Shown in pieces: positions 9,303-56,120 of a DNA stretch of 64,000 bases. Source of the DNA: Bradyrhizobium sp. MOS002 (GTDB taxonomy: Bacteria; Pseudomonadota; Alphaproteobacteria; Rhizobiales; Xanthobacteraceae); contig NZ_PYFX01000002.1 in assembly GCF_003020115.1 (NCBI RefSeq), positions 124,001-188,000 on the forward strand, written 5' to 3'. The notes beneath the pieces are model-generated. The model saw only the letters and a program-made list of their open reading frames with translations, did not search any database and was not told where the DNA came from. The translations under genes and the position numbers were made by a program. Position 1 is the stretch's first letter; each line of letters starts with the position of its first letter.

Positions 9303-9679
9303 TTCATCCCGGTCATCTGGTGGATCGGCATCATGTTGCTGTTGAGGTGGTTCATCACCCACAGCGAACCCGACAGGGCGATCACCACCATGACGATGGT
9401 GAAGATCAGCGCCATCATGCTCCAGCCGTTCTCGGACGTCGTGTTCATATGCAGGAAGTAGATCATGTGCACGACGATTTGCACGACCGCAAAGGCCATG
9501 ATGACCAGCGCGGTGATCTGCTTGCTCGGTAGCGCGCCGCTCATCACCAGCCAGAACGGGATCGCGGTGAGCACGACCGAGAGCACGAAGCCGAGCATGT
9601 AAGTCGAGAACGAGCCGTGGGCGCGGCTGTCGCCGTGGTGATGATCGTCCGCGTGGGCGGCGTGAGTATCGGTGTTCAT
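9299..9679 (-). CDS. cyoD: Cytochrome bo3-type quinol oxidase subunit IV (CyoD)
   Basis: 126-residue membrane protein with a His-rich soluble N-terminus (HAADDHHHG-like), then three helices, including the CyoD-typical [14 protein letters not shown] segment. Subunit IV supports assembly of the CuB site and binding of subunits I and III. ATG 9679 overlaps the cyoC stop by 4 nt (ATGA). A longer upstream frame lies entirely within cyoC and was not used. Confidence 0.93.
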
Positions 9680-10305
9680 CGCAGAACTCCCAGGAGATAG
9701 ACGAAGGTGAAGACGCCGATCCAGACCACGTCCAGGAAGTGCCAGAACATCGACAGGCACATCAGGCGGCGGCGGTTGGCCTCGATCAGGCCGAATTTCC
9801 AGACCTGCACCATCAGGGTCACCAGCCAGATCAGACCGCAGCTGACGTGCAGGCCGTGGGTGCCGACCAGGGTGAAGAAGGCGGACAGGAAGGCGCTGCG
9901 CTGCGGCGTCGCACCCTCATGGATCATGTGAGCGAACTCGGACAGCTCGATGCCGATGAAGGCGGCGCCGAACAGGCCGGTGATCGCCAGCCACATCTGG
10001 GTCTGGGCGGTCTTGTTCTGCTGCATCGTCAGCATGGCGAAGCCGTAGGTGATAGATGACAGTAGCAGCATCGAGGTGTTGACCGCGACCAGCGGCAGTT
10101 CGAACAGATCCTTCGGCGCCGGCCCGGCGGCGTAGTTGCCGCCGAGCACGCCGAAGGTGGCGAACAGGATCGCGAAGATGAGACAGTCGCTCATCAGATA
10201 GATCCAGAAGCCGAGAGAGGTGCTGTAGCCTTCCGGATGCGGGTGTTCGTCGGCGAGGTAGAACACCGGTTCGCCGGCTTGCGTGGGATTGACAGCGACA
10301 GTCAT
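9676..10305 (-). CDS. cyoC: Cytochrome bo3-type quinol oxidase subunit III (CyoC)
   Basis: 209 residues with five membrane helices, as in CyoC (cytochrome c oxidase subunit III has two more N-terminal helices). Characteristic are [20 protein letters not shown] near the N-terminus, SITYGFAML, and the C-terminal [20 protein letters not shown]. Subunit III contributes to stability of the oxidase and has no redox centre. The start ATG 10305 follows the cyoB TAA with no intervening base. Confidence 0.95.
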
Positions 10306-12303
10306 TTACTTGGCTCCGGCGAGCAGTTTGGTGCGCGCGTCTTCGGCCCGGATGACGTCGTCGGCCGGAATGTCGAAATCGCGGTGATAGTTGAAGGTGT
10401 GACCGATGCCGACGGCGAGCATCGCGATGAAGCTCGCGGCCGCAAGCCACCAGATGTACCAGATCAGGCCGAATCCCATCGCGGTGGCGAAGCCGGCGAG
10501 GATGATGCCGGTGCCGGTGCTGCTGGGCATGTGGATCGGCTTGAACCCGGTGAGCGGGCGTTGATAACCGCGCTTCTTCATGTCCCACCACGCGTCATTG
10601 TCGTGAACGACCGGGGTGAAAGCGAAGTTGTAGGCCGGCGGCGGCGAGGAGGTCGCCCATTCCAGCGTGCGCGCATCCCAGGGATCGCCGGTGACGTCCT
10701 TGAGCTGCTCGCGCCTGAGGAAGCTGACGGCGAACTGCATCAGCATCGAGAGGATGCCGAGGAAGACCAGGAAGGCGCCAATGCCGGCGACGATGAACCA
10801 GATCTGCAGGCTCGGGTCGTCGAACACACGGAGCCGGCGGGTCACGCCCATCAGGCCGAGCACATAGAGCGGCATGAAAGCGAGGTAGAAGCCCGTGACC
10901 CAGAACCAGAACGACAGCTTGCCCCAGAACGGGTCGAGCTTGAAGCCGAACGCCTTCGGGAACCAGTAGCCGATACCGGCGAACGCGCCGAACACCACGC
11001 CGCCGATGATCACGTTGTGGAAGTGCGCGATCAGGAACAGGCTGTTGTGCAGGACGAAGTCGGCCGGGGGCACCGCGAGCAGCACGCCGGTCATGCCGCC
11101 GAGCACGAAGGTCAGCATGAACGCGATCGTCCACATCATCGGCAGCTCGAAGCGGATGCGGCCGCGATACATCGTGAACAGCCAGTTGAACATCTTCGCG
11201 CCCGTCGGGATCGAGATGATCATCGTGGTGATGCCGAAGAACGAGTTGACGCTGGCGCCCGACCCCATCGTGAAGAAATGGTGCAGCCAGACCAGGTAGG
11301 ACAGGATGGTGATGACCACCGTGGCGTAGACCATCGAGGTGTAGCCGAACAGCCGCTTGCCCGAGAAGGTCGAGGTCACTTCCGAGAAGATGCCGAAGGC
11401 GGGGAGAACCAGGATGTAGACCTCGGGATGACCCCAGATCCAGATCAGGTTCACGTACATCATCGGGCTGCCGCCGAAATCGTTGGTGAAGAAGTTTGTG
11501 CCGACGTAGCGGTCGAGCGAAAGCAGCGCGAGCACGACGGTCAGAACCGGGAAGGAAGCGACGATCAGCACGTTGGTGCAGAGCGCGGTCCAGGTGAACA
11601 CCGGCATCCGCATCATGGTCATGCCGGGGCACCGCAGCTTGACGATGGTGCAGATCAGGTTGATGCCGGACAGTGTCGTTCCGACGCCCGCGACCTGTAG
11701 TCCCCATATGTAATAGTCGACGCCGACATCCGGACTGTAGCCGATGTTCGACAGCGGCGGATAAGCCAGCCAGCCGGTGCGGGCGAATTCGCCGATGAAG
11801 AGCGAGGCCATCACCAGCACCGCGCCGCCGACCGTCATCCAGAAGCTGAAATTGTTCAGGAACGGGAACGACACGTCGCGCGCACCGATCTGGAGCGGGA
11901 CGACGAAGTTCATCAGGCCGGTGACCAGCGGCATCGCCACGAAGAAGATCATGATCACGCCGTGGGCGGTGAAGACCTGGTCGTAGTGATGCGAGTTGAG
12001 ATAACCCTCCGAGCCGCCGAAGGCGAGCGCCTGCTGCAGCCGCATCATCAGCGCGTCGGCGAAACCGCGCAGCAGCATCACGATGCCGAGGATCATGTAC
12101 ATGATGCCGATGCGCTTGTGGTCGACGCTGGTGAACCACTCGCTCCAGAGATAACCCCAGAGACGGAAATAGGTCAGGCCGGCGAGCATGACGAGGCCGC
12201 CGGTCGCCACCACGGCAAAGGTGCCGACGACGATCGGCTCGTGCAGCGGCAGCGATTCGATGGTGAGCCGGCCGAAGATGAGCTTGAGAAGATCAGGAGA
12301 CAT
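10306..12303 (-). CDS. cyoB: Cytochrome bo3-type quinol oxidase subunit I (CyoB)
   Basis: 665-residue catalytic subunit with about 15 helices. It reduces O2 to water with electrons from ubiquinol and pumps protons. Metal ligands are readable: the low-spin heme His in [14 protein letters not shown], the CuB His and cross-linked Tyr in [12 protein letters not shown], the two CuB His in WLHHFFTMG, and the C-terminal heme His in [14 protein letters not shown]. The N- and C-terminal extensions, longer than in cytochrome c oxidase subunit I, match CyoB. It lies 11 nt after cyoA and directly precedes cyoC. Confidence 0.96.
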
Positions 12304-23028: not shown

Positions 23029-23152
23029 CGTCGTCCCGGCGAAGGCCGGGACCCTTAACCACAGGCAGTGGTTTGGCGATGACTCGTAGTTACCAGCGTC
23101 GCGCGACAACTGCTCCCTCGGGGTATGGGTCCCGGCCTTCGCCGGGACGACA
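23029..23152. repeat. Palindromic repeat A, copy 2
   Basis: CGTCGTCCCGGCGAAGGCCG at the left and CGGCCTTCGCCGGGACGACA at the right, with GGGACCC/GGGTCCC inner arms. It lies between the convergent synthetase and hydratase genes. Confidence 0.88.
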
Positions 23153-44352: not shown

Positions 44353-45237
44353 CTACAGCACCGGCGACAGCGAGCTCTTCAATTCGCGCAATAGCGCCTG
44401 AACCGCTGCAGCCTGGACCCGTCGCTCGGGAATGGTGGCCTTGACCCATAAATCGGGGATTGGAAAATCCGGCAACACGACCTGCAACGTGCCTTGGCGG
44501 AGTGCCTCTTCCGCAAGGTAGTGCGAGATGAAGGCGATGCCGTTGCCGGCGATCGCGCTTTTCACGAGCACGTGGCCCTCGTTCGAACTCAACAGCGGCC
44601 GCACCTGAACGGTGATACGGTCGCGCGGCCCATCGAACACCCAGTCCGGGCCGGTGGGAAGAAAACTCAGGCAACGATGATCGACCAGATCGCGCGGGTG
44701 TCGCGGCATGCCGTGCGTGCTGAGATAGGCCGGCGACGCGCACAACAAGCGCTTCAATCGGCATAGGGGTTCGTCGACCACACCGCCGAAAGAATGCGGG
44801 AACGCACCGATGGCGATATCGAAGCCTTCCGTCACCGGATCGACGGGACGGTCGATCAGAACGATTTCGAGTTTCAGCTTCGGGTTTTGGGTCTGGAATG
44901 CGCTGAACACATCGGCAAGCCGGGCGATCGTCAGCGATGTCGGTGCCTTGATGCGCAGATGGTCGATAAGATCATGTCCTTTCTCGCCCATGCGCGACAG
45001 GAGATCGCCGACATCGGCGACGACGCTCCGCGCCCGGTGGACATATTCCTGGCCGGCCGCGGTCAGGCGCAATTGCCGCGTCGAGCGATGAAACAGCGGC
45101 GTGCCGATCCGTGTCTCCAATTGGGTGACCCGTTTTGCGACCACCGAAGTCGCGACGTCGAGCTTTCTTGCCGCGGCGGAAAATCCGGCCGCGTCCGCGG
45201 TGGCGAGGAACGCCTGAAGGTTTACCAGGATGTCCAT
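44353..45237 (-). CDS. LysR-family transcription regulator
   Basis: 294 residues with an N-terminal winged helix (LVNLQAFLATADAAGFSAAARKLDVATSVVAKRVTQLE, in overlapping segments) and a two-lobed effector domain (LRIKAPTSLTIARLADV, GVVDEPLCRLKRLLCASPAYL). The N-terminus is typical of the CrgA-like subgroup. It is divergent from the FAD oxidoreductase gene at 45350 with a 112-bp gap, the classical arrangement for LysR control of the neighbouring operon. Confidence 0.92.
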   Translation of the reverse strand: MDILVNLQAFLATADAAGFSAAARKLDVATSVVAKRVTQLETRIGTPLFHRSTRQLRLTAAGQEYVHRARSVVADVGDLLSRMGEKGHDLIDHLRIKAPTSLTIARLADVFSAFQTQNPKLKLEIVLIDRPVDPVTEGFDIAIGAFPHSFGGVVDEPLCRLKRLLCASPAYLSTHGMPRHPRDLVDHRCLSFLPTGPDWVFDGPRDRITVQVRPLLSSNEGHVLVKSAIAGNGIAFISHYLAEEALRQGTLQVVLPDFPIPDLWVKATIPERRVQAAAVQALLRELKSSLSPVL

Positions 45238-45349: not shown

Positions 45350-46714
45350 ATGCAGGCCACGACGATCGAAGAACCGGCGCGCCAGGTGCCGCTCTACGGC
45401 GAATATGAAGTTGTCGTCCTCGGCGGCGGTCCGGCCGGTATCGTGGCGGCGGCCTCAGCTGCGCGCGCGGGGCGGAAGACGCTCCTGATCGAGCGCTACG
45501 GCTTTCTTGGCGGCATGGGGACCGCTGCCGGCGTCACCAACTTTTGTGGTTTGCATGGCAATGTGTACGGCCAGGCCCACCGGCTGGTGCAGGGCATGGC
45601 GTCCGAGCTGTTGGCGCGGATTGACCATTTGAACGGCCTCAACGCGCCGCATCTGATCCTCGGCAAGGTCTTCGCCCAGGCCTACGACACCGCCGCTTAC
45701 AAGATCGCGGCCGACCAACTGCTCGCCAGTCACAAGGTGCACATCCTCTTCCACGCGCTCGGTGCCGGCGTCGTGATGGGCAACGATCGGCGCATCGATG
45801 CGCTGATGGTCGAGACCAAGGCCGGCCGGCGGGCGGTGCGGTCGGAGATCTTCATCGATTGCTCCGGCGACGGCGATCTCGCGGTCTGGGCCGGCGCGCC
45901 GTTCGAATTCGGCGACGAGCACGGTCATCCGATGTACCCGTCGATGATGCTCCGTCTCAACGGCATCGATCCCGCGAAGGCCGGCGATGCCTGGCGCACC
46001 ATCCCGCAATTGATGGAGCAGGCCACCGCAGCCGGCACCCACACATTCCCGCGCAAGAGCGCGATCGTGCGGCCGCAGAAATCCGGCATCGAATGGCGGG
46101 TGAACTTCACGCAAGTGGCGCGCGAGGACGGCCATGCCATCAACGGCATCGAGCCTGACGATCTCACCCGCGGCGAGATCGAGGGCCGCAAGCAGGCGCT
46201 TGCGGCGTTCGAATTCCTGCGCACCGTGCCGGGCTTTGAAAAATCCTACATCGTCGACCTGCCGCCGCAGCTCGGCATCCGCGAAACCCGCCGCATCACG
46301 GGCGGCTATCAGCTCAGCGGCGAGGATGTGCTCGGCTGCGCCTCGTTCGAGGATTCCATCGGGGTCAATGGCTGGCCGATCGAGGCCCATGTTCCCGGCG
46401 ACGTCGTCTTCACCTTCCCGCCGATCCCGGAATCGCGCGGCTATAACGAGCTGCCTTACCGCATGCTGGTGCCCGAAGGGGTCGATAATCTGCTGGTCGC
46501 CGGCCGCTGCGCCTCGATGACCCATGAGGGCCAATCGGCGGCCCGGGTCTCCGGTGCCTGTTTTGTGATGGGAGAGGCGGCCGGTTCCGCCGCCGCGCTG
46601 GCGCTCTCCGGAAACCGGATCCCACGTGACATCCCTGTTGAAAAGCTGCAGGAAACGTTGAAACAACAGGGCGCCTTCATCGGACGGGACCAGCCCGTGC
46701 CCGAAGGCCTGTAA
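45350..46714 (+). CDS. FAD-dependent oxidoreductase of the FAD_oxidored (PF12831-type) family
   Basis: 454 residues. Dinucleotide motif VVVLGGGPAGIVAA (about residues 21-34), then LIERYGFLGGMGTAAGVT, DCSGDGDLAVWAGAP and the closing NLLVAGRCASMTHEGQSAARV. This family has one FAD and no disulfide pair; substrates are unknown in most members. It is followed after 33 bp by an SsuA-like binding protein and then an ABC transporter, so the oxidised compound is probably imported by that system under LysR control. Confidence 0.88.
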   Translation: MQATTIEEPARQVPLYGEYEVVVLGGGPAGIVAAASAARAGRKTLLIERYGFLGGMGTAAGVTNFCGLHGNVYGQAHRLVQGMASELLARIDHLNGLNAPHLILGKVFAQAYDTAAYKIAADQLLASHKVHILFHALGAGVVMGNDRRIDALMVETKAGRRAVRSEIFIDCSGDGDLAVWAGAPFEFGDEHGHPMYPSMMLRLNGIDPAKAGDAWRTIPQLMEQATAAGTHTFPRKSAIVRPQKSGIEWRVNFTQVAREDGHAINGIEPDDLTRGEIEGRKQALAAFEFLRTVPGFEKSYIVDLPPQLGIRETRRITGGYQLSGEDVLGCASFEDSIGVNGWPIEAHVPGDVVFTFPPIPESRGYNELPYRMLVPEGVDNLLVAGRCASMTHEGQSAARVSGACFVMGEAAGSAAALALSGNRIPRDIPVEKLQETLKQQGAFIGRDQPVPEGL

Positions 46715-46747
46715 CCGACTGCAAGATAACGACGGCGAGGAAACGAA

Positions 46748-47752
46748 ATGACCGGGATTGTGCGGCTCGCGCTAGCTGGCCTGATGGCGATCACAGCGAT
46801 GGGCACCGCCCGAGCCGAGGACGCGCTGAAGGCCAGAATCGGCGTGCTCAGGCTATCCTCCTCCGCGCCGGTCTTCATCGCGCAGGACAAGGGCTATTTC
46901 CGCGAGGCTGGCCTCGATGTCGAGCTGAAATTCTTCGATGCGGCGCAGCCGATCGCGGTGGCCACCACCTCCGGCGACATCGATTTCGGCGTCACCGCCT
47001 TCACCGCCGGCCTCTACAATCTCGCCGGCAAGGGCGTGCTGAAGGTGATCGGCGGCATGAGCCGCGAGAAGGCCGGCTATCCCCTGATCGGCTATTTCGC
47101 CAGCAACAACGCCTATGCGAGCGGCCTGAAGACGCCGAAGGACCTCGCGGGCAAGCGCGTGGCGATGACGCAGGTCGGCTCCTCCTTTCACTATTCGCTC
47201 GGCCTGCTTGCCGACAAATACGGCTTCAAGCTCGCCGACGTGAAGATCGTGCCGCTGCAATCGCTGTCGAATGCGGCAGCCGCGCTGAAGGGCGAGACCG
47301 TGGATGCAGCGCTGCTGCCGATCTCCACCGCGCGAAAGCTGATAGACGACGGCGGTGCGAAGTTTCTCGGCTGGGTCGGCGACGAGACACCCTGGCAATT
47401 GGGCGCGGTGTTCGCCTCACCGAAGACGCTGACCAACAAGGTGCTGGTGACGAAGCTGCTCGGCGCTTTGGCAAAGGCCGACCGCGAATATCACGACGTC
47501 ATCCTTGCCACGATGAAGGACGGTGTCGCGCCGATCAATGACAAGACAAAGCCGCTGCTGGAGATCATCGCCAAGTATACGAACCTCCCGGTCGAGCAGG
47601 TGGTCGGCAATTGCGCCTACATCGATCCCGACGGCAAGCTGGATGTGAAAAACGTCGACAACCAGATCAAATGGCTCCAGGAGCAGGGTTTTGCCGACAA
47701 GGGCTTCGATGCGAATGCGATCATCGCCAAGGAATTTGTGCAGGCGGATTGA
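46748..47752 (+). CDS. NMT1/SsuA-like ABC substrate-binding protein
   Basis: 334 residues with a signal ALAGLMAITAMGTARA and the type 2 periplasmic binding fold: IGVLRLSSSAPVFIAQDKGYF, LDVELKFFDAAQP and ISTARKLIDDGG. The family binds sulfonates, nitrate, taurine or pyrimidine precursors. It is the binding subunit of the transporter encoded by the ATPase (48030) and permease (48796), although two palindromic repeats separate it from them. Confidence 0.92.
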   Translation: MTGIVRLALAGLMAITAMGTARAEDALKARIGVLRLSSSAPVFIAQDKGYFREAGLDVELKFFDAAQPIAVATTSGDIDFGVTAFTAGLYNLAGKGVLKVIGGMSREKAGYPLIGYFASNNAYASGLKTPKDLAGKRVAMTQVGSSFHYSLGLLADKYGFKLADVKIVPLQSLSNAAAALKGETVDAALLPISTARKLIDDGGAKFLGWVGDETPWQLGAVFASPKTLTNKVLVTKLLGALAKADREYHDVILATMKDGVAPINDKTKPLLEIIAKYTNLPVEQVVGNCAYIDPDGKLDVKNVDNQIKWLQEQGFADKGFDANAIIAKEFVQAD

Positions 47753-47774
47753 TGCATCGTTCTCCTAACCATCT

Positions 47775-47856
47775 CCGTCATCCTGAGGTGCTCGACTTGC
47801 GGCGCGCCGCAAGTCGAGCCTCGAAGGATGCACGGCCCGGATGCAGCCGGGCCGTC
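47775..47856. repeat. Palindromic repeat C, copy 2 (partial)
   Basis: CCGTCATCCTGAGGTGCTCG..CTCGAAGGATG matches the left half of copy 1 (20745). The right arm is missing and replaced by a CGGCCCGG..CCGGGCCG hairpin. An inner CTCGACTTGC/GCAAGTCGAG palindrome is intact. Confidence 0.75.
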
Positions 47857-47876
47857 GCTATTGCAAGGCCCTCGGT

Positions 47877-48015
47877 GTCGTCCCGGCGAAGGCCGGGACC
47901 CATACGCCGAGTGGGAGTTGTGGCGCAAAGTAGTCATCGCCTGTCTTCGCCAAATTCAATTTGGTGGTTATGGGTCCCGGCCCCCGTGCGCAATCGCGCA
48001 CTAGGCCGGGACGAC
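47877..48015. repeat. Palindromic repeat A, copy 4
   Basis: GTCGTCCCGGCGAAGGCCGG at the left; the right arm contains TGCGCAATCGCGCA and ends CCGGGACGAC. It ends 15 bp before the ATPase start, so it occupies the 5' region of that gene. Confidence 0.85.
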
Positions 48016-48029
48016 ACTGAGGCCATGAC

Positions 48030-48795
<766 letters not shown>

Positions 48796-48803
<8 letters not shown>

Positions 48804-49620
48804 TCGCGCGCCAGTGGGAACATCTGCGAAGGATGAAACGGTCCGGCGCGTCCGCTTTCGCGGCACCGGCTTCGTGCCGGCGAGCAGCCGTTTCGGCGGC
48901 TGGATCGCGCTCGCGCTGGTCATTGCGATCTGGCAGGCCGCCGGCAGCACCGGCCTCGTCAATCCGCTGTTCCTGCCGCCGCCATCGGCGATCGCGCGGG
49001 CGATCTACCAGCTCGCGATCTCGGGCGCGCTGTGGCATCACCTTTCCGCGTCGCTCCTGCGCATCGGTGTCGGCTGGCTGCTCGGCACGGCTGCCGGTGT
49101 CGCGGTTGGCTTTGCCATCGGCCTGTCGCGTCTGGCGCGCAGCGTCGGCATCACCTTCATCTCGGCGCTGTTCCCGATCCCGAAGATCGCGCTGCTGCCG
49201 CTGTTGATCCTCTGGCTCGGTATCGGCGAAGAGCCGAAGATCGCGACCATTGCGCTCGGCGTGTTCTTTTCGACCGCGATCTCGGTCTATAGCGGCGTCG
49301 ACGCGGTGCCGCGCAACCTGATCCGCATGGCGCAGAGCTTCAACGTGCCGTTCGCGACCATCGTGCGCAAGGTGGTCTGGCCGGGCGCGCTGCCCGCGAT
49401 TCTCGCCGGCTTTCGCATCACGTCGTCGGTGGCGCTGCTGCTCGTCGTCAGCGCCGAGATGATCGGCGCGCAATACGGCATCGGCGCGTTCGTGCTTCAG
49501 GCCGGCAATTTGATGCAGACGGATCAGCTGCTCGCGGGCGTGGTGATCCTGTCGGTGTTTGGGTTGATGGTGGGAAGGGTGATCAACTGGCTGGAGATAC
49601 GGCTGCTGCACTGGCGGTGA
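48796..49620 (+). CDS. SsuC/TauC-like ABC transporter permease
   Basis: 274 residues with six predicted helices (GWIALALVIAIWQAAG at the start) and the EAA-type loop ARVPFATIVRKVVWPGALPAIL, here IRMAQSFNVPFATIVRKVVW, which contacts the ATPase. It translocates the ligand delivered by the protein at 46748. It is fused in translation with the ATPase gene by an 8-nt overlap. Confidence 0.93.
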
Positions 49621-49645
49621 GGCTGGCTCGCACCGCAATCTCCGC

Positions 49646-49780
49646 CGTCGTCCCGGCGAAGGCCGGGACCCATACCGCGTGATTTATCGGGAAAGGGCGG
49701 TGTTCGTACCGAAGAACAACTAAGAGCCTTCGCCAAACTTCTCCCTGGGGTTATGGGTCCCGGCGTTCGCCGGGACGACA
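49646..49780. repeat. Palindromic repeat A, copy 5
   Basis: CGTCGTCCCGGCGAAGGCCG at the left and GCGTTCGCCGGGACGACA at the right, between the permease end and the dioxygenase end. Confidence 0.88.
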
Positions 49781-49806
49781 GGGGAGAGCGTGGCCAGCAG
49801 CGTGCC

Positions 49807-50847
49807 TCACGCATTCCCGCGATCTTCCCGGAACAAATCCAGCTTCTGCTGCACGGGTCGATCCGAGAAGCTGAACAGCACCGCGTCCATGTCGGCCTCG
49901 TGCGTGACCCATTGCCAGCTCGGCACCACGAACAAATCGCGCGGGCCCCATTCGAAGGTCGCGTCCCCGATGCGGGTGCGGCCGTGGCCTTCGATCGGAC
50001 AGAACACGGTTGCGTCCGTCGCGCGATAGCGCGCGGTCTTGAAACCCTTCGGCAGCAGCTGGATGAACGTGCCGATGGTCGGCATCGCGAAGTCGCCGGT
50101 TTCGGGATTGCTGAACTTCAGCTTCAGCCCGTGACAGGCGTCCCACTCCTGGCTCGCGCGAGCTTTCTCCAGTGCCTCGCGCGTGTAGGCATAGGGATAG
50201 CTGAAGATCGGCGAGGTCTTCGAGCTCCGCTTCACGTCGACCGGCAACAGATTGTGGCCGTAGCGCGCAAAGCTGTCGCCGGCGGGCCTTGTAATCTTCT
50301 GCTGGTCCTCGTTGGAGCCTTCCGCGAAGGAGCAGTCGAAGAACTGCACCAGCGGAATGTCGAGACCGTCGAGCCAGAACATCGGCTGGTCGGTCTCGTT
50401 GGAATGATCGTGCCAGGTCATCGACGGCGTGATGATGAAGTCGCCGGGCTCCATCGCGGTGCGCTCGCCGTCGACCGCGGTGTGGGCGCCCTTGCCTTCG
50501 AGCACGAAGCGCAGCGCCGACTGGCTGTGCCGGTGGGCGGGCGCGACATCGCCGGGCACCACCATCTGCACGCCGGCATAGAGCGACGTGGTGATTTTCG
50601 ACTGCCCGCGCAGGCCGGGATTTTCCAGCACCAGCACGCGCCGCTCGGCTTCTTTCGCCGTGATCAGCTTGCCGGCTTCGGTCATGTAGTCGCGGATAAC
50701 GTCGAATTTCCACAGATGCGGCCGGCAGGCGCTCTTCGGCTCCGGCGTGATCAAATCGCTCATGACGGTCCAGAGCGCGGTGAGATTCTCGCCGTCGATC
50801 TTCTTGTAGAACGCCTCGCGTTCCGGCGTCTTGGTCACGGCTTCCAT
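49807..50847 (-). CDS. Gentisate 1,2-dioxygenase-like bicupin
   Basis: 346 residues with two cupin domains. The first has AHRHSQSALRFVLEG (H105, H107) and WHDHSNE (H146, H148), the Fe(II) site of gentisate dioxygenases, which open the ring of gentisate to maleylpyruvate. The second cupin (GRTRIGDATFEWGPRDLFVV) lacks an obvious His set. A 5-hydroxyanthranilate or related substrate is an alternative. A promoter with -35 TTGACG and -10 TATACT lies 27 bp upstream inside the conserved operator. It is divergent from the isomerase gene. Confidence 0.9.
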   Translation of the reverse strand: MEAVTKTPEREAFYKKIDGENLTALWTVMSDLITPEPKSACRPHLWKFDVIRDYMTEAGKLITAKEAERRVLVLENPGLRGQSKITTSLYAGVQMVVPGDVAPAHRHSQSALRFVLEGKGAHTAVDGERTAMEPGDFIITPSMTWHDHSNETDQPMFWLDGLDIPLVQFFDCSFAEGSNEDQQKITRPAGDSFARYGHNLLPVDVKRSSKTSPIFSYPYAYTREALEKARASQEWDACHGLKLKFSNPETGDFAMPTIGTFIQLLPKGFKTARYRATDATVFCPIEGHGRTRIGDATFEWGPRDLFVVPSWQWVTHEADMDAVLFSFSDRPVQQKLDLFREDRGNA

Positions 50848-50872
50848 GGTGCGGCTCCCGTCGTTGTTTTGT

Positions 50873-50899
50873 TGATTGACAGTATACTTACGATCTAGG
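50873..50899. promoter_or_regulatory. Conserved 27-nt operator, site 1 (likely MarR-binding)
   Basis: Matches site 2 (55046-55072) at 26 of 27 positions; the only difference is one G/T. The core AGTATACT-like AGTATACTTAC holds the palindrome AGTATACT and the -10 of the dioxygenase promoter, so a bound protein would block it. It lies in the divergent gap between dioxygenase and isomerase genes. Confidence 0.82.
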
Positions 50900-50908
50900 T
50901 AGCGTCAA
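50881..50908 (-). promoter_or_regulatory. Promoter of the gentisate dioxygenase gene
   Basis: Read on the minus strand: -35 TTGACG (50908-50903), 16-nt spacer, -10 TATACT (50886-50881). Transcription would start near 50874, about 27 nt before the ATG. It overlaps operator site 1. Confidence 0.65.
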
Positions 50909-50941
50909 CGTGGCGAACAAGAATGAAACGGGAGGGTTCCG

Positions 50942-51574
50942 ATGAAGCTGCACGGTTATTTCCGCTCCAGCGCCGCCTACCGGGTACGAATCGCGCTGAA
51001 CCTCAAGGGCCTCGGTGCCGAGCACCTGCCGCATCACCTTCGCAAAGGCGAGCAATGCGCGCCCGCCTATCTCGCCATCAATCCGCAGGGCCTGGTGCCC
51101 GCGTTGGAGAACGATGCAGGCGCGGTGCTGACCCAATCGGTCGCCATCATCGAATGGCTCGACGAAACCCATTCCAACCCGCCGCTGCTGCCGAAGGATG
51201 CGTTGCAGCGCGCCAAGGTGAGGGCGTTCGCGCTGGCGATCGCCTGCGATACTCACCCCGTGCAGAATCTGAAGGTGCTGGCGCGGCTGCGCGAGCTCGG
51301 GCTGCCTGAGGAGAAGGTTCAGGACTGGGCGGCCTGGGTCAACCGCGAGGGGCTCGCGGCCTGCGAGACGCTGATCAGGGACGAGCCCGGCCCGTTCTGC
51401 TTCGGTGAAGCGCCGACGCTCGCCGATCTCTGCCTCGTGCCGCAACTCGCCAATGCGCGCCGCTTCGGCGTTGACGTTTCCGCCTATCCGCGTCTGCTCG
51501 GGGCGGAAGCTGCGGCCAAGACGCTGCCGGCGTTCGCCGACGCCGCGCCGGAGAAGCAGCCCGATGCCGAGTAA
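50942..51574 (+). CDS. maiA: Zeta-class GST: maleylpyruvate or maleylacetoacetate isomerase
   Basis: 210 residues. YFRSSAAYRVRIALNLKG has the SSxxYRVRIAL signature of zeta glutathione transferases, followed by INPQGLVPALE and the all-helical C-terminal domain (EAPTLADLCLVPQ). With the gentisate dioxygenase next door, the best reading is glutathione-dependent maleylpyruvate-to-fumarylpyruvate isomerase; MaiA of tyrosine catabolism is the alternative. GGGAGG precedes the ATG. Its end overlaps the MarR gene by 11 nt. Confidence 0.85.
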   Translation: MKLHGYFRSSAAYRVRIALNLKGLGAEHLPHHLRKGEQCAPAYLAINPQGLVPALENDAGAVLTQSVAIIEWLDETHSNPPLLPKDALQRAKVRAFALAIACDTHPVQNLKVLARLRELGLPEEKVQDWAAWVNREGLAACETLIRDEPGPFCFGEAPTLADLCLVPQLANARRFGVDVSAYPRLLGAEAAAKTLPAFADAAPEKQPDAE

Positions 51575-52073
51575 GCCGCTTCCGATCACGATAGACGCGG
51601 TTTATGCCGCGCCGGGCTATCTGTTCCGGCGCATGCAGCAGATCGCGGTCTCGATCTTCATGGCGGAGTGCAAGGCGTTCGACCTGACGCCGGTGCAATA
51701 CGCGGCGCTGATCGCGATCCACACCCATCCCGGCATCGACGCGACGCGGCTGTCCGCGGTGATCGCCTTCGACCGCTCCACGCTCGGCAGCGTGATCGAG
51801 CGGCTTCAGGCCAAGGATTTTGTCGAGCGGAGGCCGGCGCCGGAAGACAAGCGGATCAAGCTGCTCTATTTGACAAAATCAGGCGCGGCGATCCTGCGCG
51901 ACATTATCCCCGCCGTCGAACGCGCCCAGGCGCGGATGCTCGAGCCGCTCAAGCCGGCGGACCGCAAAGCGCTGATGGGGCTCCTGGTGCAGCTCGTCGA
52001 TCTCAACAACGAGGCGTCGCGGGTGCCGCTACGAGCGGAGGACGCGCTGGAGCATCTGGGGAAGACGGGGTGA
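51564..52073 (+). CDS. MarR-family regulator
   Basis: 169 residues of the MarR winged-helix fold: FRRMQQIAVSIFMAEC, LTPVQYAALIAIHTHPG, DRSTLGSVIERLQAKDFVER and PAPEDKRIKLLYLTKSG (beta wing). MarR proteins bind small palindromes and release them with an aromatic ligand. It overlaps the isomerase gene by 11 nt and is the only regulator in the gentisate-type cluster, so it is the natural candidate to bind the 27-nt sites at 50873 and 55046. The ATG at 51564 gives the family start. Confidence 0.9.
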   Translation: MPSKPLPITIDAVYAAPGYLFRRMQQIAVSIFMAECKAFDLTPVQYAALIAIHTHPGIDATRLSAVIAFDRSTLGSVIERLQAKDFVERRPAPEDKRIKLLYLTKSGAAILRDIIPAVERAQARMLEPLKPADRKALMGLLVQLVDLNNEASRVPLRAEDALEHLGKTG

Positions 52074-52117
52074 GGGGGGATGTGAGTTTGTGACGATAGA
52101 GGCGCCTCATCCTCAGT

Positions 52118-52257
52118 GTCGTCCCGGCCTAGTGCGCGATTGCGCACGGGGGCCGGCACCCATACGCCGAGGCAGCGGTGACAGCGCGAGAAGGTCATTG
52201 CCTGTCTTCGCCAAACCAAATTCGGTGGTTATGGGTCCCGGCCTTCGCCGGGACGAC
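52118..52257. repeat. Palindromic repeat A, copy 6
   Basis: GTCGTCCCGGCCTAGTGCGC at the left and GGCCTTCGCCGGGACGAC at the right, with a TGCGCGATTGCGCA hairpin as seen in copy 4. Confidence 0.85.
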
Positions 52258-52282
52258 AGCGAGAGTGTGGTTACAGCCTTCC

Positions 52283-53896
52283 TCACATCCTCAACAACGC
52301 CTGCCGGTCGATCTTCCCCGTGCCCGTCTTCGGCAGCTCGTCGATGAAGATCACTTCACGCGGATATTTGTAGGGAAGCAGCTTGCCCTTGACGTAGTCC
52401 TGTAGCCTGCGGGTCGCCTCGCTCTGGTCGGCGGCGCGGCTGTTCATCACGACGACCGCCTTCAGCGTCATGCGCCGGTCCGGCAGCTCGGCGGCGAACA
52501 CCGCGCATTCGCGGATGTCGGGGTGGTCGGCGAGGCACAGCTCGACCTCGAGCGGGTAGACCCACTGGCCGGAGATCTTGATGAGATCGTCGGCGCGGCC
52601 GCGGAAGAAATGAAAGCCGTCGGCGTCGCGGACGAAGCGGTCGCCGGTGTAGATCCAGCCGCCCTGCCGAATCGTTTCGGCGGATTTGTCCGGCCGGTTC
52701 CAGTACAGCGGCGTGTTGGAATCGCCGCGCACCCACAAGATGCCTTCCTCGTCGTCGGCGACATCGCGGCCGTCCTTGTCGCGCAACGCGACCTCGTAGC
52801 CGGGCACGCGCAGGCCGGCGGCGCCGAGCTTTTTCCGCTCAGGGCGGTTGGAGAGATAGATGTGCAGCACCTCGGTAGAGCCAAGGCCTTCGACGATCTC
52901 GAGACCGGTGAGCGTCTTCCAGCCGTTGAAAACGTCGGCCGAGAGCACTTCGGCAGCAGAGAGCGCCATGCGCAGCGACGAGAAGTCGGTCTTGTCGGCA
53001 CCCTCGGCCTTGGTCAGCGACGTGTAAAGCGTCGGCAGGCCGAAGAAGACAGTCGGCTTGTACTGCGCGATCGCCGAAAAGATCGCCGCGGGTTTCGGCT
53101 GGCCCGGCAACAGCAGCGTCGTGGCGCCCGCCGAGAACGGGAAGGTGATCGCGTTGCCGAAGCCATAGGCGAAGAAGATCTTCGGCACCGAGAAGCAGAT
53201 GTCGTCCGGCGTCAGCTTCAAGACGTTCTGCGCAAAGGCGGCCTCGCTATAGGCCATGTCGTGCTGGAGATGCACGATGCCCTTGGGCCGGCCGGTCGAT
53301 CCGGACGAGTACATCCAGAACGCCATCTCGTTGCGATGCGTGTCGGCTTCCGCGAGCTCAGTTGGAAATTGCGGGAGCCAGCCGGCGGCAGGAATGGCGT
53401 TCGGTGCGGCGTGATCGCCCACCGCGCCATTGACGACGACCAGCGTATGCAGGGCGGTGTCCTTGCAAGCTTCAGCGTTGAAACGTGCACAGAACTCGGC
53501 ATCCGCCACCGCGACAGAAGCGCCGGAATCGGCGAGATAGAATTGCAGCAGATCCGGCGGCGTCAGCGTGTTGATCAGCAGCGGTACGAGGCCGGCGCGC
53601 ACCGCGCCGAAGAACGCGGCCGGATAGGCCGGCGTATCATCGAGGAACAGCAGCACGCGATCGCCGCGCTTGAGGCCCAGCGAGGCAAAGCCATTGCCCC
53701 AGCGGCAGGCTTCCGCGCAGAGCTCGGCATAGGTGCGCGTACCCGCGGGGCCAAGGAGCGCGAGCTTGTCGCCGCTTCCTGTTGCGAGATTGTCGAACAG
53801 CACGCGGCTGGCATTGTAGACCTGCGGAACGGCGAAGCCGATCTCGCGCGCGCCGGCGCAGTCGGCGGGCACCTGGTCGTCGATCTGGGCGCTCAT
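52283..53896 (-). CDS. Benzoate/salicylate-type CoA ligase (AMP-forming)
   Basis: 537 residues. Motifs: MYSSGSTGRPKGIVH (P-loop), GLGSTEVLHIYLS (A5), YTGDRFVRDADGFHFFRGR (A7/A8), PKTGTGKIDRQALL (C-terminal Lys). The segment layout and length fit the benzoate-CoA ligase group (BadA/BclA-like). It would make the CoA thioester of an aromatic acid, the substrate for the hydroxylase encoded upstream. Its ATG overlaps the hydroxylase stop by 4 nt (ATGA), so the two are coupled. Confidence 0.9.
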   Translation of the reverse strand: MSAQIDDQVPADCAGAREIGFAVPQVYNASRVLFDNLATGSGDKLALLGPAGTRTYAELCAEACRWGNGFASLGLKRGDRVLLFLDDTPAYPAAFFGAVRAGLVPLLINTLTPPDLLQFYLADSGASVAVADAEFCARFNAEACKDTALHTLVVVNGAVGDHAAPNAIPAAGWLPQFPTELAEADTHRNEMAFWMYSSGSTGRPKGIVHLQHDMAYSEAAFAQNVLKLTPDDICFSVPKIFFAYGFGNAITFPFSAGATTLLLPGQPKPAAIFSAIAQYKPTVFFGLPTLYTSLTKAEGADKTDFSSLRMALSAAEVLSADVFNGWKTLTGLEIVEGLGSTEVLHIYLSNRPERKKLGAAGLRVPGYEVALRDKDGRDVADDEEGILWVRGDSNTPLYWNRPDKSAETIRQGGWIYTGDRFVRDADGFHFFRGRADDLIKISGQWVYPLEVELCLADHPDIRECAVFAAELPDRRMTLKAVVVMNSRAADQSEATRRLQDYVKGKLLPYKYPREVIFIDELPKTGTGKIDRQALLRM

Positions 53897-55032
53897 GCCT
53901 GGTCCCCGCCGTTCTTGGCGGCTTCGTAGCGCGCCATGAACCCCGGCGACATCGTGCGCAGGCGAGAGTCGTCGATGCGGCCCGAGCGGGTGATGTAGCT
54001 ATAGGCAAAGTCCATCAGGCCTTGCTGCATGTGCTGAGCAAAGTGCTCGTACCAGAAAGCGCTGGTCCGCGCGGCGTTGACGAGCTTCTGCACCACCGGC
54101 TTTCGTGCGGCCTGGTAGCGATGCAGGGCGGTGGACAGATGCGCATCCGACTCCAGCGCCTTGACCAGCGCAATGGCGTCCTCGATCGCGAGCCGCGTGC
54201 CCGAGCCGATCGAGAAATGCGCCGAGTGCAGGGCGTCGCCGAGCAGCACCATGTTCTTGAACGACCAGTGCTCGTTCCAGACCCAGGGGAAGTTGCGCCA
54301 GACCGATTTGTTCGAGACCAGCGAGCGGCCGCCGAGCGTGTCGGCAAACACCTCCTCGCAGACGCCCTTGGACTGCTCCACATCCTTGTAGGCGAAACCG
54401 TAGGCCTGCCAGGTCGAGTGGTCGCATTCGACCAGGAACGTGCTCATGGTCGGCGAGTAGCGGTAGTGGTGGGCGTTGAAGGCGCCGCGGTCGGTCTTCA
54501 CGAAAGTCTGCGACAGCGTGTCGAAGCGCTTCGAGGTGCCGTACCAGACGAACTTGTTGGAGGAGTAGGACAGCGAGGTGCCGAAATCGCCCTCGAAGGC
54601 GCGGCGCACCAGCGAGTTCAACCCGTCGGCGGCGACGATCAGATCGTGGCCGTTGAGCTGGTCGATCCCATGAATTGGCGTGTCGAAGCGCGGGGTGACG
54701 CCGGCATCGAGCGCGCGCTGCTGCAGGAATCGCAAGAGCTCGAGCCGGCCGATCGAGGAGAAGCCGACACCGTCGATGGCGACGCTATCGCCGCCCAGGT
54801 TCAGCGTGATGTTCTCCCAGCTCTCCATGTGCGGCGCGATCGCGTCGACCGTCTCGGGGTCGTCGGCGCGCAAAAATTCCAGCGCCTGGTCCGAGAACAC
54901 GACGCCAAAGCCCCAGGTCGCGTCGGCCGGGTTCTGTTCGAACAGGTCGACCTGATCCTCGGGGTGACGCTTCTTCCAGAGATAGGCGAAGTAGAGCCCA
55001 CCGGGCCCCCCGCCAATCACGGCGATCCGCAA
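53893..55032 (-). CDS. FAD-dependent aryl-CoA monooxygenase (salicylyl-CoA 5-hydroxylase-like)
   Basis: 379 residues: FAD motif VIGGGPGGLYFAYLW (about 5-19) and the second FAD segment GDALHSAHFSIGSGTRLAIE, which is the pattern of salicylyl-CoA 5-hydroxylase and aminobenzoyl-CoA monooxygenases. It would place OH para to the existing hydroxyl, giving gentisyl-CoA, or act on an anthraniloyl-CoA-like ester. The TTG start at 55032 follows GGGAGGA; operator site 2 lies 13 bp upstream. No separate reductase is needed for this flavoprotein class. Confidence 0.88.
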   Translation of the reverse strand: MRIAVIGGGPGGLYFAYLWKKRHPEDQVDLFEQNPADATWGFGVVFSDQALEFLRADDPETVDAIAPHMESWENITLNLGGDSVAIDGVGFSSIGRLELLRFLQQRALDAGVTPRFDTPIHGIDQLNGHDLIVAADGLNSLVRRAFEGDFGTSLSYSSNKFVWYGTSKRFDTLSQTFVKTDRGAFNAHHYRYSPTMSTFLVECDHSTWQAYGFAYKDVEQSKGVCEEVFADTLGGRSLVSNKSVWRNFPWVWNEHWSFKNMVLLGDALHSAHFSIGSGTRLAIEDAIALVKALESDAHLSTALHRYQAARKPVVQKLVNAARTSAFWYEHFAQHMQQGLMDFAYSYITRSGRIDDSRLRTMSPGFMARYEAAKNGGDQA

Positions 55033-55045
55033 CGTCTGTCCTCCC

Positions 55046-55072
55046 TGATTGACAGTATACTTACTATCTAGG
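55046..55072. promoter_or_regulatory. Conserved 27-nt operator, site 2 (likely MarR-binding)
   Basis: Matches site 1 (50873-50899) at 26 of 27 positions. On the minus strand it carries TATACT (55059-55054) as a possible -10, only 22 nt from the TTG start of the hydroxylase. The upstream -35 (TAGTCT) is weak, so this promoter may need activation or be tightly controlled. Confidence 0.82.
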
Positions 55073-55147
55073 GGTAGACTAATGTGCTCCGGCTTCCCGC
55101 GCCAGCGGAATTATCGGCGAAGCGCGCGGCACGCCGAAGCTCATGCC

Positions 55148-55170
55148 TGGACACGCGTTTGGCGCGTGTC
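55148..55170. terminator. Strong hairpin between the Cys-repeat gene and the hydroxylase promoter
   Basis: GGACACGCG (55148-55156) and CGCGTGTCC (55162-55170) form a perfect 9-bp stem with a 5-nt loop. No T-run follows; it probably marks the end of transcription of the Cys-repeat gene. Confidence 0.55.
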
Positions 55171-55274
55171 CGAAGCAGTGACGTGCGAAGCATAGACAAA
55201 CCGCGCCGGCTTGGCCATCCGCAGGTCAGCTCACCAGCGCCGTGGTGCGGCGGGCCGCCGGATGGCTCGCTTCT

Positions 55275-56120
55275 CTAGCGTGCAGCAAACGGCGCCAGCA
55301 CGTCCTTGCAGGCGGGCGACAGCGAAGCGGCATTGTTGGCAACGCATTGGATGATCCGACCGCCACCTGGCGCCACGCTGCCGCACAGCGTGCGGACATC
55401 CTCGCGACATGCGGACTGGACGATGAACAGCTCTTCGCGTGGCCGCAGCGGGCGCAGCACGATCACGGCAGGCGCGGCTGCCGGTGCAGCTGCCGCCGCA
55501 GGAGCGGCGCCCGCAGGTGCCGCCGTTGCTGCCGCGCCACCGCCGGCCGCGGCGCTCACGGCCTTCTCGCAGGCCGGCGAAACCTTTGCCTTGTTCTTCT
55601 CGAGGCATTCGAGTGCGGGCGCGCCGCCCGGCGGCACGCTGGCGCACACCTTGGGATAATCGGCGCGGCACGCGCTCTTGACGGCAGCGACCTGCGCGCT
55701 GCTCGGCTGTTTGGCTGCAGCGGGCTTGGGCGCGGCTGCGGCAGCCGGCTTTGCGGCGGGAGCGGTGTCAGCCTTCGGTGCGGCGGGCGCGGTCTCCGCC
55801 TTGGGTGCAGCCTCCTTGGGTGCAGCTTCGGTCTTCGGCGCGGCTTCGGTCTTCGGCGCCGCAGCTGGCTCGACGGCGCGAACCGCGGTTTGGCATCCCG
55901 ATGACAGGCTGGACATGTTCTTCTGCAGGCATTGATAGGCTTCCACGCCGCCGGGCGTGACGCTCGAACAGTGCGCCATGAAGTCCGAGCGGCATGCGGA
56001 GCGGATCGCGCTCTTCTGCGCCTCGGTCGGTGCTTGTGCGAATGCGCCTGCTGCAGTTGCGAAGAGAGCCGCCGCCAGCAACGCCCCGCGTGCTGACGTA
56101 TGTTTCAACGTGTTGAACAT
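55275..56120 (-). CDS. Secreted protein with three cysteine-rich repeats and Ala/Pro/Lys linkers
   Basis: 281 residues: a signal peptide (LLAAALFATAAGAFAQA), then three modules with identical cysteine spacing C-x7-C-x12-C-x11-C. Module 1 has C43, C51, C64, C76; module 2 has C151, C159, C172, C184; module 3 has C238, C246, C259, C271. The modules resemble the eukaryotic GLG1-type cysteine-rich repeat. Ala/Pro/Lys linkers (repeated APKTEA/APKA units) join them. It is probably periplasmic with two disulfides per module. Function unknown. I chose ATG 56120; the longer frame starts 27 codons earlier. Confidence 0.85.
   Translation of the reverse strand: MFNTLKHTSARGALLAAALFATAAGAFAQAPTEAQKSAIRSACRSDFMAHCSSVTPGGVEAYQCLQKNMSSLSSGCQTAVRAVEPAAAPKTEAAPKTEAAPKEAAPKAETAPAAPKADTAPAAKPAAAAAPKPAAAKQPSSAQVAAVKSACRADYPKVCASVPPGGAPALECLEKNKAKVSPACEKAVSAAAGGGAAATAAPAGAAPAAAAAPAAAPAVIVLRPLRPREELFIVQSACREDVRTLCGSVAPGGGRIIQCVANNAASLSPACKDVLAPFAAR

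Follow-up and report, generated by a model that had tools for sequence, protein, structure and literature searches.

A palindromic site at two promoters of a Bradyrhizobium gentisate cluster is a predicted operator of the neighbouring MarR-family regulator

Gene cluster and candidate sites

The stretch of DNA analysed here (the window, 64,000 nucleotides) comes from the genome of Bradyrhizobium sp. MOS002, which comprises 7.58 Mb in 70 contigs, and contains a gentisate gene cluster in which nearly the same 22-bp palindrome occurs at two promoters. These two sites are very probably operators of the MarR-family repressor encoded between them. The cluster further includes genes for a gentisate 1,2-dioxygenase, an isomerase, a benzoate-coenzyme A (CoA) ligase family protein and a flavin adenine dinucleotide (FAD) monooxygenase (Table 1).

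The dioxygenase is assigned by an equivalog model and the ligase, whose best solved relatives are benzoate-CoA ligases, by a subfamily model. For the isomerase, the choice between maleylacetoacetate and maleylpyruvate as substrate is undecided. The regulator scores above the cut-offs of both Pfam models and thus has a winged helix-turn-helix MarR domain; its best solved relatives are 6pcp and PcaV (4fht). Because marR overlaps the isomerase stop codon, the two genes are probably co-transcribed. The monooxygenase is termed salicylyl-CoA 5-hydroxylase-like here and is not counted as a member of that group. Its best NCBIfam model (NF006101) gives 399 bits, below a cut-off of 1078; this model describes a bifunctional protein of 768 positions, of which only the first half is matched.

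Table 1. Coordinates of the predicted operators, the promoter and the genes (window positions, except in the last row)
Feature	Position	Strand or orientation	Sequence, model match or placement
Operator 1 (putative)	50874..50895	none	GATTGACAGTATACTTACGATC on +; overlies the -10 of the gentisate dioxygenase promoter and its predicted start
Operator 2 (putative)	55047..55068	none	GATTGACAGTATACTTACTATC on +; over the -10-like TATACT of the monooxygenase-ligase genes
Predicted sigma-70 promoter, gentisate dioxygenase	50881..50908	-	TTGACG, 16 nt, TATACT
Gentisate 1,2-dioxygenase	49807..50847	-	TIGR02272, 627 bits (cut-off 442)
Maleylacetoacetate/maleylpyruvate isomerase, glutathione S-transferase type	50942..51574	+	TIGR01262, 260 bits (cut-off 171)
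MarR-family regulator	51564..52073	+	PF12802, 47.1 bits (cut-off 27); PF01047, 45.6 bits (cut-off 24.6)
Benzoate-CoA-ligase family protein	52283..53896	-	TIGR02262, 489 bits (cut-off 375)
FAD monooxygenase, TTG start	53893..55032	-	PF01494; like the N-terminal half of salicylyl-CoA 5-hydroxylase
MarR paralogue and divergent gene	9625..12113 of region L129	divergent	Divergent gene: phenol 2-monooxygenase subfamily, 1090 bits (cut-off 560)

Symmetry and promoter position of the two sites

The 27-mers at 50873-50899 and 55046-55072 of the forward strand, spaced by 4173 bp, are identical at 26 of 27 positions and differ by a single G/T exchange. The original prediction had described this identity, together with a -10-like TATACT on the minus strand of both sites and a marR gene between them, and all three are present in the sequence. 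With up to three mismatches allowed, the 27-mer has two matches in the window, and none occurred in 100 shuffles. In the output of the repeat finder the pair is family D12; of the 21 families of direct repeats listed, several consist of dispersed GC-rich elements. Such GC-rich repeats, around GGTCCCGGCCTTCGCCGGGACGAC, lie at 23121, 29871, 49749 and 52227, and inverted copies are also found.

The 27-mers contain the functional unit, a 22-bp inverted repeat (GATNGNNAGTATRCTNNCNATC) with its centre between AGTA and TACT and with the minus-strand -10 hexamer TATACT inside it; eight of the 11 pairs are symmetric at each of the two window sites. AGTATACT is palindromic, and therefore TATACT is read on both strands. 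The minus-strand sequences are GATCGTAAGTATACTGTCAATC and GATAGTAAGTATACTGTCAATC. Operator 1 lies within the gap common to the dioxygenase gene and the divergent isomerase-marR genes, where the predicted dioxygenase promoter is the sole promoter-like match between 49500 and 55400 (score 10/12); taken alone, this match is weak evidence, because shuffles average 0.6. At the other site, GGGAGG and then a TTG codon follow close by, so that the leader of the monooxygenase transcript would be very short. A MarR dimer on the 22-bp site would cover the -10 and the transcription start. On the sequence evidence, the sites thus have the form of a palindromic operator within a regulated promoter.

Conservation within Bradyrhizobium

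Conservation was assessed in the best 80 of 165 confirmed Bradyrhizobium loci. On the monooxygenase side, where the best match to the 16-nt core was taken within 160 bp upstream, zero, one, two, four and five mismatches were found in 71, 3, 3, 2 and 1 loci (at most two in 77/80). On the dioxygenase side, 75 loci could be compared, with zero to five mismatches in 8, 41, 10, 14, 1 and 1 loci (at most three in 73/75); the remaining five of the 80 have no dioxygenase match in the stretch compared. Upstream of the dioxygenase gene, both the TTGACG stretch and the palindrome have a high information content, which drops outside them (75 loci). The monooxygenase footprint is less telling, because its whole neighbourhood is more generally conserved. 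Further, AGTATRCTGTCAA is present in all 75 dioxygenase sites, and the symmetry reaches 9 of 11 pairs in 42 of them.

In the 75 relatives, the two sites of the same locus agree at 18-26 of 27 positions (at most 24 in 65 of them), and the near-identity of 26/27 in this genome is unusually high by comparison. Across the genus, the palindrome occurs within one mismatch in 32 of 40 genomes, as against 0/40 for the reversed control.

Four loci (L040, L057, L078 and L080) show no CoA-ligase match between the monooxygenase and MarR genes. Their operator match before the monooxygenase gene remains, being perfect in L040 and L057, with two mismatches in L078 and four in L080. Also, a record titled Frankia sp. 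RB7 (L059) carries the same Bradyrhizobium locus, with 94% identity in the monooxygenase, and is probably mislabelled or contaminated.

Further sites in the genome

Many random copies in the genome had been named beforehand as grounds for dropping the operator reading. The genome scan found the palindrome at up to two mismatches in only two places, the window sites. The pattern ATNGNCAGTATRCTGNCNAT at up to one mismatch likewise returns these two alone, and at two mismatches adds three further places (C2:142872, C23:196174 and C34:544138), the last of which lies at a MarR paralogue, while the first two are not assigned to a gene. A 3-mismatch pattern gives 48 forward matches and four with the reversed control, which makes the reversed control a poor yardstick at this depth. 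Among the many 3-mismatch places, the one inspected, C32:7776, has no convincing gene beside it. A third palindrome in genome G036 was discarded because it lies inside a called reading frame.

The original prediction had suggested that a search for additional sites might lead to the missing thioesterase and hydrolase genes; this was not borne out, the best candidates being without an operator. All 12 FAA-hydrolase regions have at least four mismatches to the 20-nt pattern; two of them (L164 and L165) contain the 10-nt core with one mismatch and without arms. No operator lies near the nearest hydrolases (C14:15484, 55%; C7:73682, 52%) or near the best thioesterase homologue (C12:377261, 35% identity), which was the only one of 20 thioesterase-family places scanned directly, the others being covered by the genome-wide patterns. 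The predicted regulon, as seen by this search, is two sites serving three transcription units.

The operator core and the MarR branch

The core CAGTATRCTG, from which each window site differs by one mismatch, was searched for in 91 MarR homologues of the order (29-100% identity), beginning 900 bp ahead of the MarR start. These homologues represent part of the matches listed, and comprise 30 loci, 60 more taken from along the list, and the region of the paralogue (L129). At up to one mismatch, the core is found upstream of 28 of the 38 MarR genes with at least 43.5% identity (expected 1.0) and of three of the 53 below that value (expected 1.6). By identity, it is present in 9/9 at 80% or more, 3/4 at about 55-79%, 16/25 at 43.5-55%, 3/29 at 38-43.5% and 0/24 below 38%, with shuffled expectations of 0.37, 0.10, 0.50, 0.80 and 0.77. 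Exact cores number 4, 0, 14, 2 and 0 in the same order (expected 0 to 0.03). On a quick MarR tree of 90 rows, which leaves out L129 and has many open forks, core absence requires eight changes (shuffled mean 25.4) and exact core presence 11 (shuffled mean 17.5), and none of 500 shuffles was as low in either case.

Outside the genus, the core at up to one mismatch occurs in the divergent isomerase-dioxygenase gap of L108, L110, L111, L118 and L123, which are all five loci with this divergent arrangement among L108-L128, and it is exact in two of them. No core was found upstream in L116, L125 and L127, where a dioxygenase gene stands beside a MarR gene of 40-46% identity. A phylum-wide MarR search matched 44 of 398 genomes and added 14 new MarR loci, with the core upstream in L233 (same genus), L235 and L236, downstream in L238 and in none of the other ten. 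These observations suggest that the same operator core accompanies this MarR branch into other bacterial families, and this is the freshest part of the findings. In L138, of another family, three operator-like cores (3607, 5517 and 8484) surround a MarR gene of 56% identity, which suggests a larger regulon there.

The same genome has a second MarR gene on contig C34, with 48% identity to the window MarR and the same core at its own gene. Two cores lie 15 bp apart, 22 and 37 bp before the aligned start; the true start of the paralogue is probably internal, because the longest frame (from TTG) would include both. In the order set, another 12 MarR genes have such a core pair with the same 15-bp spacing. 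The paralogue faces a phenol-hydroxylase-type gene, which we take to be a mob-like layout, the name MobR for this branch resting on layout rather than on sequence. Tentatively, CAGTATRCTG could be a common code of two MarR branches that occur together in this genome, the gentisate branch with its single 22-bp palindrome and the mob-like branch, in which two cores at a 15-bp spacing prevail. Cross-binding repressors would then link two hydroxybenzoate pathways and tell sites apart by spacing and copy number, although we hold this to be rather unlikely.

Pathway, ligand and neighbouring genes

Related clusters bear on the missing genes and on the likely ligand. L134, from another family, has genes for an IclR protein and a 4HBT_2 thioesterase between the MarR and monooxygenase-ligase genes, and in L135 an FAA hydrolase gene follows the dioxygenase gene. 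L136 has a 3-hydroxybenzoate 6-monooxygenase (570 bits, cut-off 459) beside MarR, isomerase and dioxygenase genes, and its 16-kb region contains no ligase homologue and only a weak match to the window monooxygenase, inside the 3-hydroxybenzoate 6-monooxygenase gene. Because the MarR branch also serves this cluster with a free-acid peripheral enzyme, a CoA ester seems less likely as the general ligand. From these gene contexts we lean towards gentisate or another hydroxybenzoate in its free form. For Massilia, a route that leads salicylate in the direction of gentisate by way of CoA esters and sdgC has been described (PMC13215587).

Adjoining the cluster, at 45350-49620, are genes for an FAD oxidoreductase and an ATP-binding cassette (ABC) transporter similar to those of the aliphatic-sulfonate/taurine type. 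Most of the relatives examined have the transporter genes in synteny, and these possibly serve the uptake of the aromatic substrate. A LysR-family gene (44353-45237), divergent from the FAD oxidoreductase gene, may encode a second regulator of the area.

Proposed mechanism and alternative explanations

We consider it likely that the two sites are operators of the neighbouring MarR regulator, because the palindrome fits a dimeric regulator, overlies the promoters, is conserved at both and occurs in only two places. The original prediction of one regulon with a MarR-type operator is supported computationally by the palindrome, its promoter position, its conservation in the genus, its rarity in the genome and its co-occurrence with the MarR branch. 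Several observations weigh against it. The monooxygenase promoter had no -35 match in the scan of 49500-55400. Among the closer MarR homologues, 10/38 have no core within 900 bp upstream; L112 and L113 have one on the downstream side of the MarR start, and in L140, which is the region of L109, one is found close to where another called gene begins. L116 (46%, beside a dioxygenase gene) and L234 (49%) are without a core. The identity bins were chosen after the core list had been seen, and near relatives were counted separately, which inflates the counts. Within the genus, 8/40 genomes, counted irrespective of cluster presence, have no palindrome at up to one mismatch, and at least three mismatches are found in L080, L090, L091 and L092, at one site or at both, and also at further dioxygenase sites. 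Also, a second regulator is possible, given the LysR gene and the IclR gene of L134.

Such a regulator could even own the sites. Cross-binding by the paralogue is plausible because it has the same core at its own gene, the window contains the LysR gene at a distance of 5.6 kb, and an IclR gene stands in the related cluster L134. However, in other families too the core accompanies the local MarR gene, lying between the isomerase and dioxygenase genes, and its presence tracks MarR identity, whereas the LysR gene is beside the FAD oxidoreductase gene and away from the sites; we therefore regard operators of another regulator (LysR, an IclR or the C34 paralogue) as improbable. It is very improbable that the sites are no more than a pair of similar sigma-70 promoters, kept because polymerase requires them. 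Although TATACT is present in both and a good -35 accompanies the dioxygenase site, the monooxygenase promoter has none, conservation takes in the arms and the CTGTCAA that follows the -10 (AGTATRCTGTCAA in all 75 dioxygenase sites), parts that are dispensable for polymerase, and a palindrome with the same core recurs at MarR genes of other families. The 26/27 identity in this genome might also arise if the pair were a repeat of the dispersed kind, or if one promoter had recently been copied onto the other. This is exceedingly improbable, as the pair occupies only two places in the genome and relatives keep both sites; since the majority letters also differ at several positions across the genus, the two sites are old and separate.

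For a MarR operator at both promoters, we infer the following scheme of binding, repression, autoregulation, ligand and pathway substrate. A MarR dimer would sit on each 22-bp inverted repeat, with the -10 hexamer at its centre, and would keep RNA polymerase off the dioxygenase and monooxygenase-ligase promoters. Autoregulation of marR is probable because the isomerase and marR genes are read in the opposite direction from the gap that holds Operator 1. In the presence of an aromatic acid, the repressor would be released by a ligand, for which a free hydroxybenzoate (such as gentisate or its precursor) is the most likely candidate. Release would then switch on two arms, namely acid activation and hydroxylation (ligase, monooxygenase) and ring cleavage and isomerisation (dioxygenase, isomerase). 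This is an ordinary kind of switch, mapped here in detail.

Relation to known systems

In the open-licence literature searched, the parts consulted name neither this operator nor a MarR regulon for the Bradyrhizobium gentisate cluster, and the main text of a review of MarR regulators in plant-interacting bacteria (PMC10458429) mentions neither Bradyrhizobium nor gentisate. Finding the ligands of such regulators is reported to be hard (PMC5487221). The present analysis gives a defined, testable operator for a MarR branch of aromatic-acid catabolism that is widespread in Bradyrhizobium and in other families, which allows direct binding and release assays. Prediction of the regulon from sequence could become possible, and the switch may show how soil and root bacteria turn on the breakdown of salicylate-like plant compounds.

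MarR dimers are described as binding palindromes (PMC4737184, PMC5487221), and several known regulators invite comparison. The closest solved relative of the window MarR by sequence is BpsR of Bordetella (structures 6PCP and 6PCO), which represses nicotinic acid metabolism among others and whose exact DNA sequence is called unclear (PMC6837509); its pathway and ligand are different. PcaV of Streptomyces coelicolor represses an aromatic-acid ring-cleavage operon, with protocatechuate as best inducer (PMC5487221), and is distant in sequence (E 5e-13) and different in pathway. In Burkholderia xenovorans LB400, the MarR gene mhbR stands beside gentisate genes, and a palindrome, ATTGTTTCACAAACTAAT, is predicted before the transporter gene mhbT (PMC3572157); this palindrome is unlike that of the window.

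CouR of Rhodococcus jostii RHA1 uses one inverted repeat for divergent promoters, with further copies at other promoters of its regulon (PMC4737184). Its operator, cATTGA-N5-TCAATg, lies over the -35 and its ligand is p-coumaroyl-CoA (PMC4737184), whereas the window operator lies over the -10 and its ligand is more likely a free acid. MobR of Comamonas testosteroni, a MarR repressor of the 3-hydroxybenzoate hydroxylase gene, responds to 3-hydroxybenzoate (PMC6191541, PMC4737184). The window MarR resembles it as a predicted hydroxybenzoate-pathway repressor, a likeness drawn from the gene layout of the paralogue, not from sequence. It differs from MobR in serving a gentisate/CoA cluster with a single palindrome per promoter, whereas in most of the mob-like relatives there are two cores, spaced 15 bp apart.

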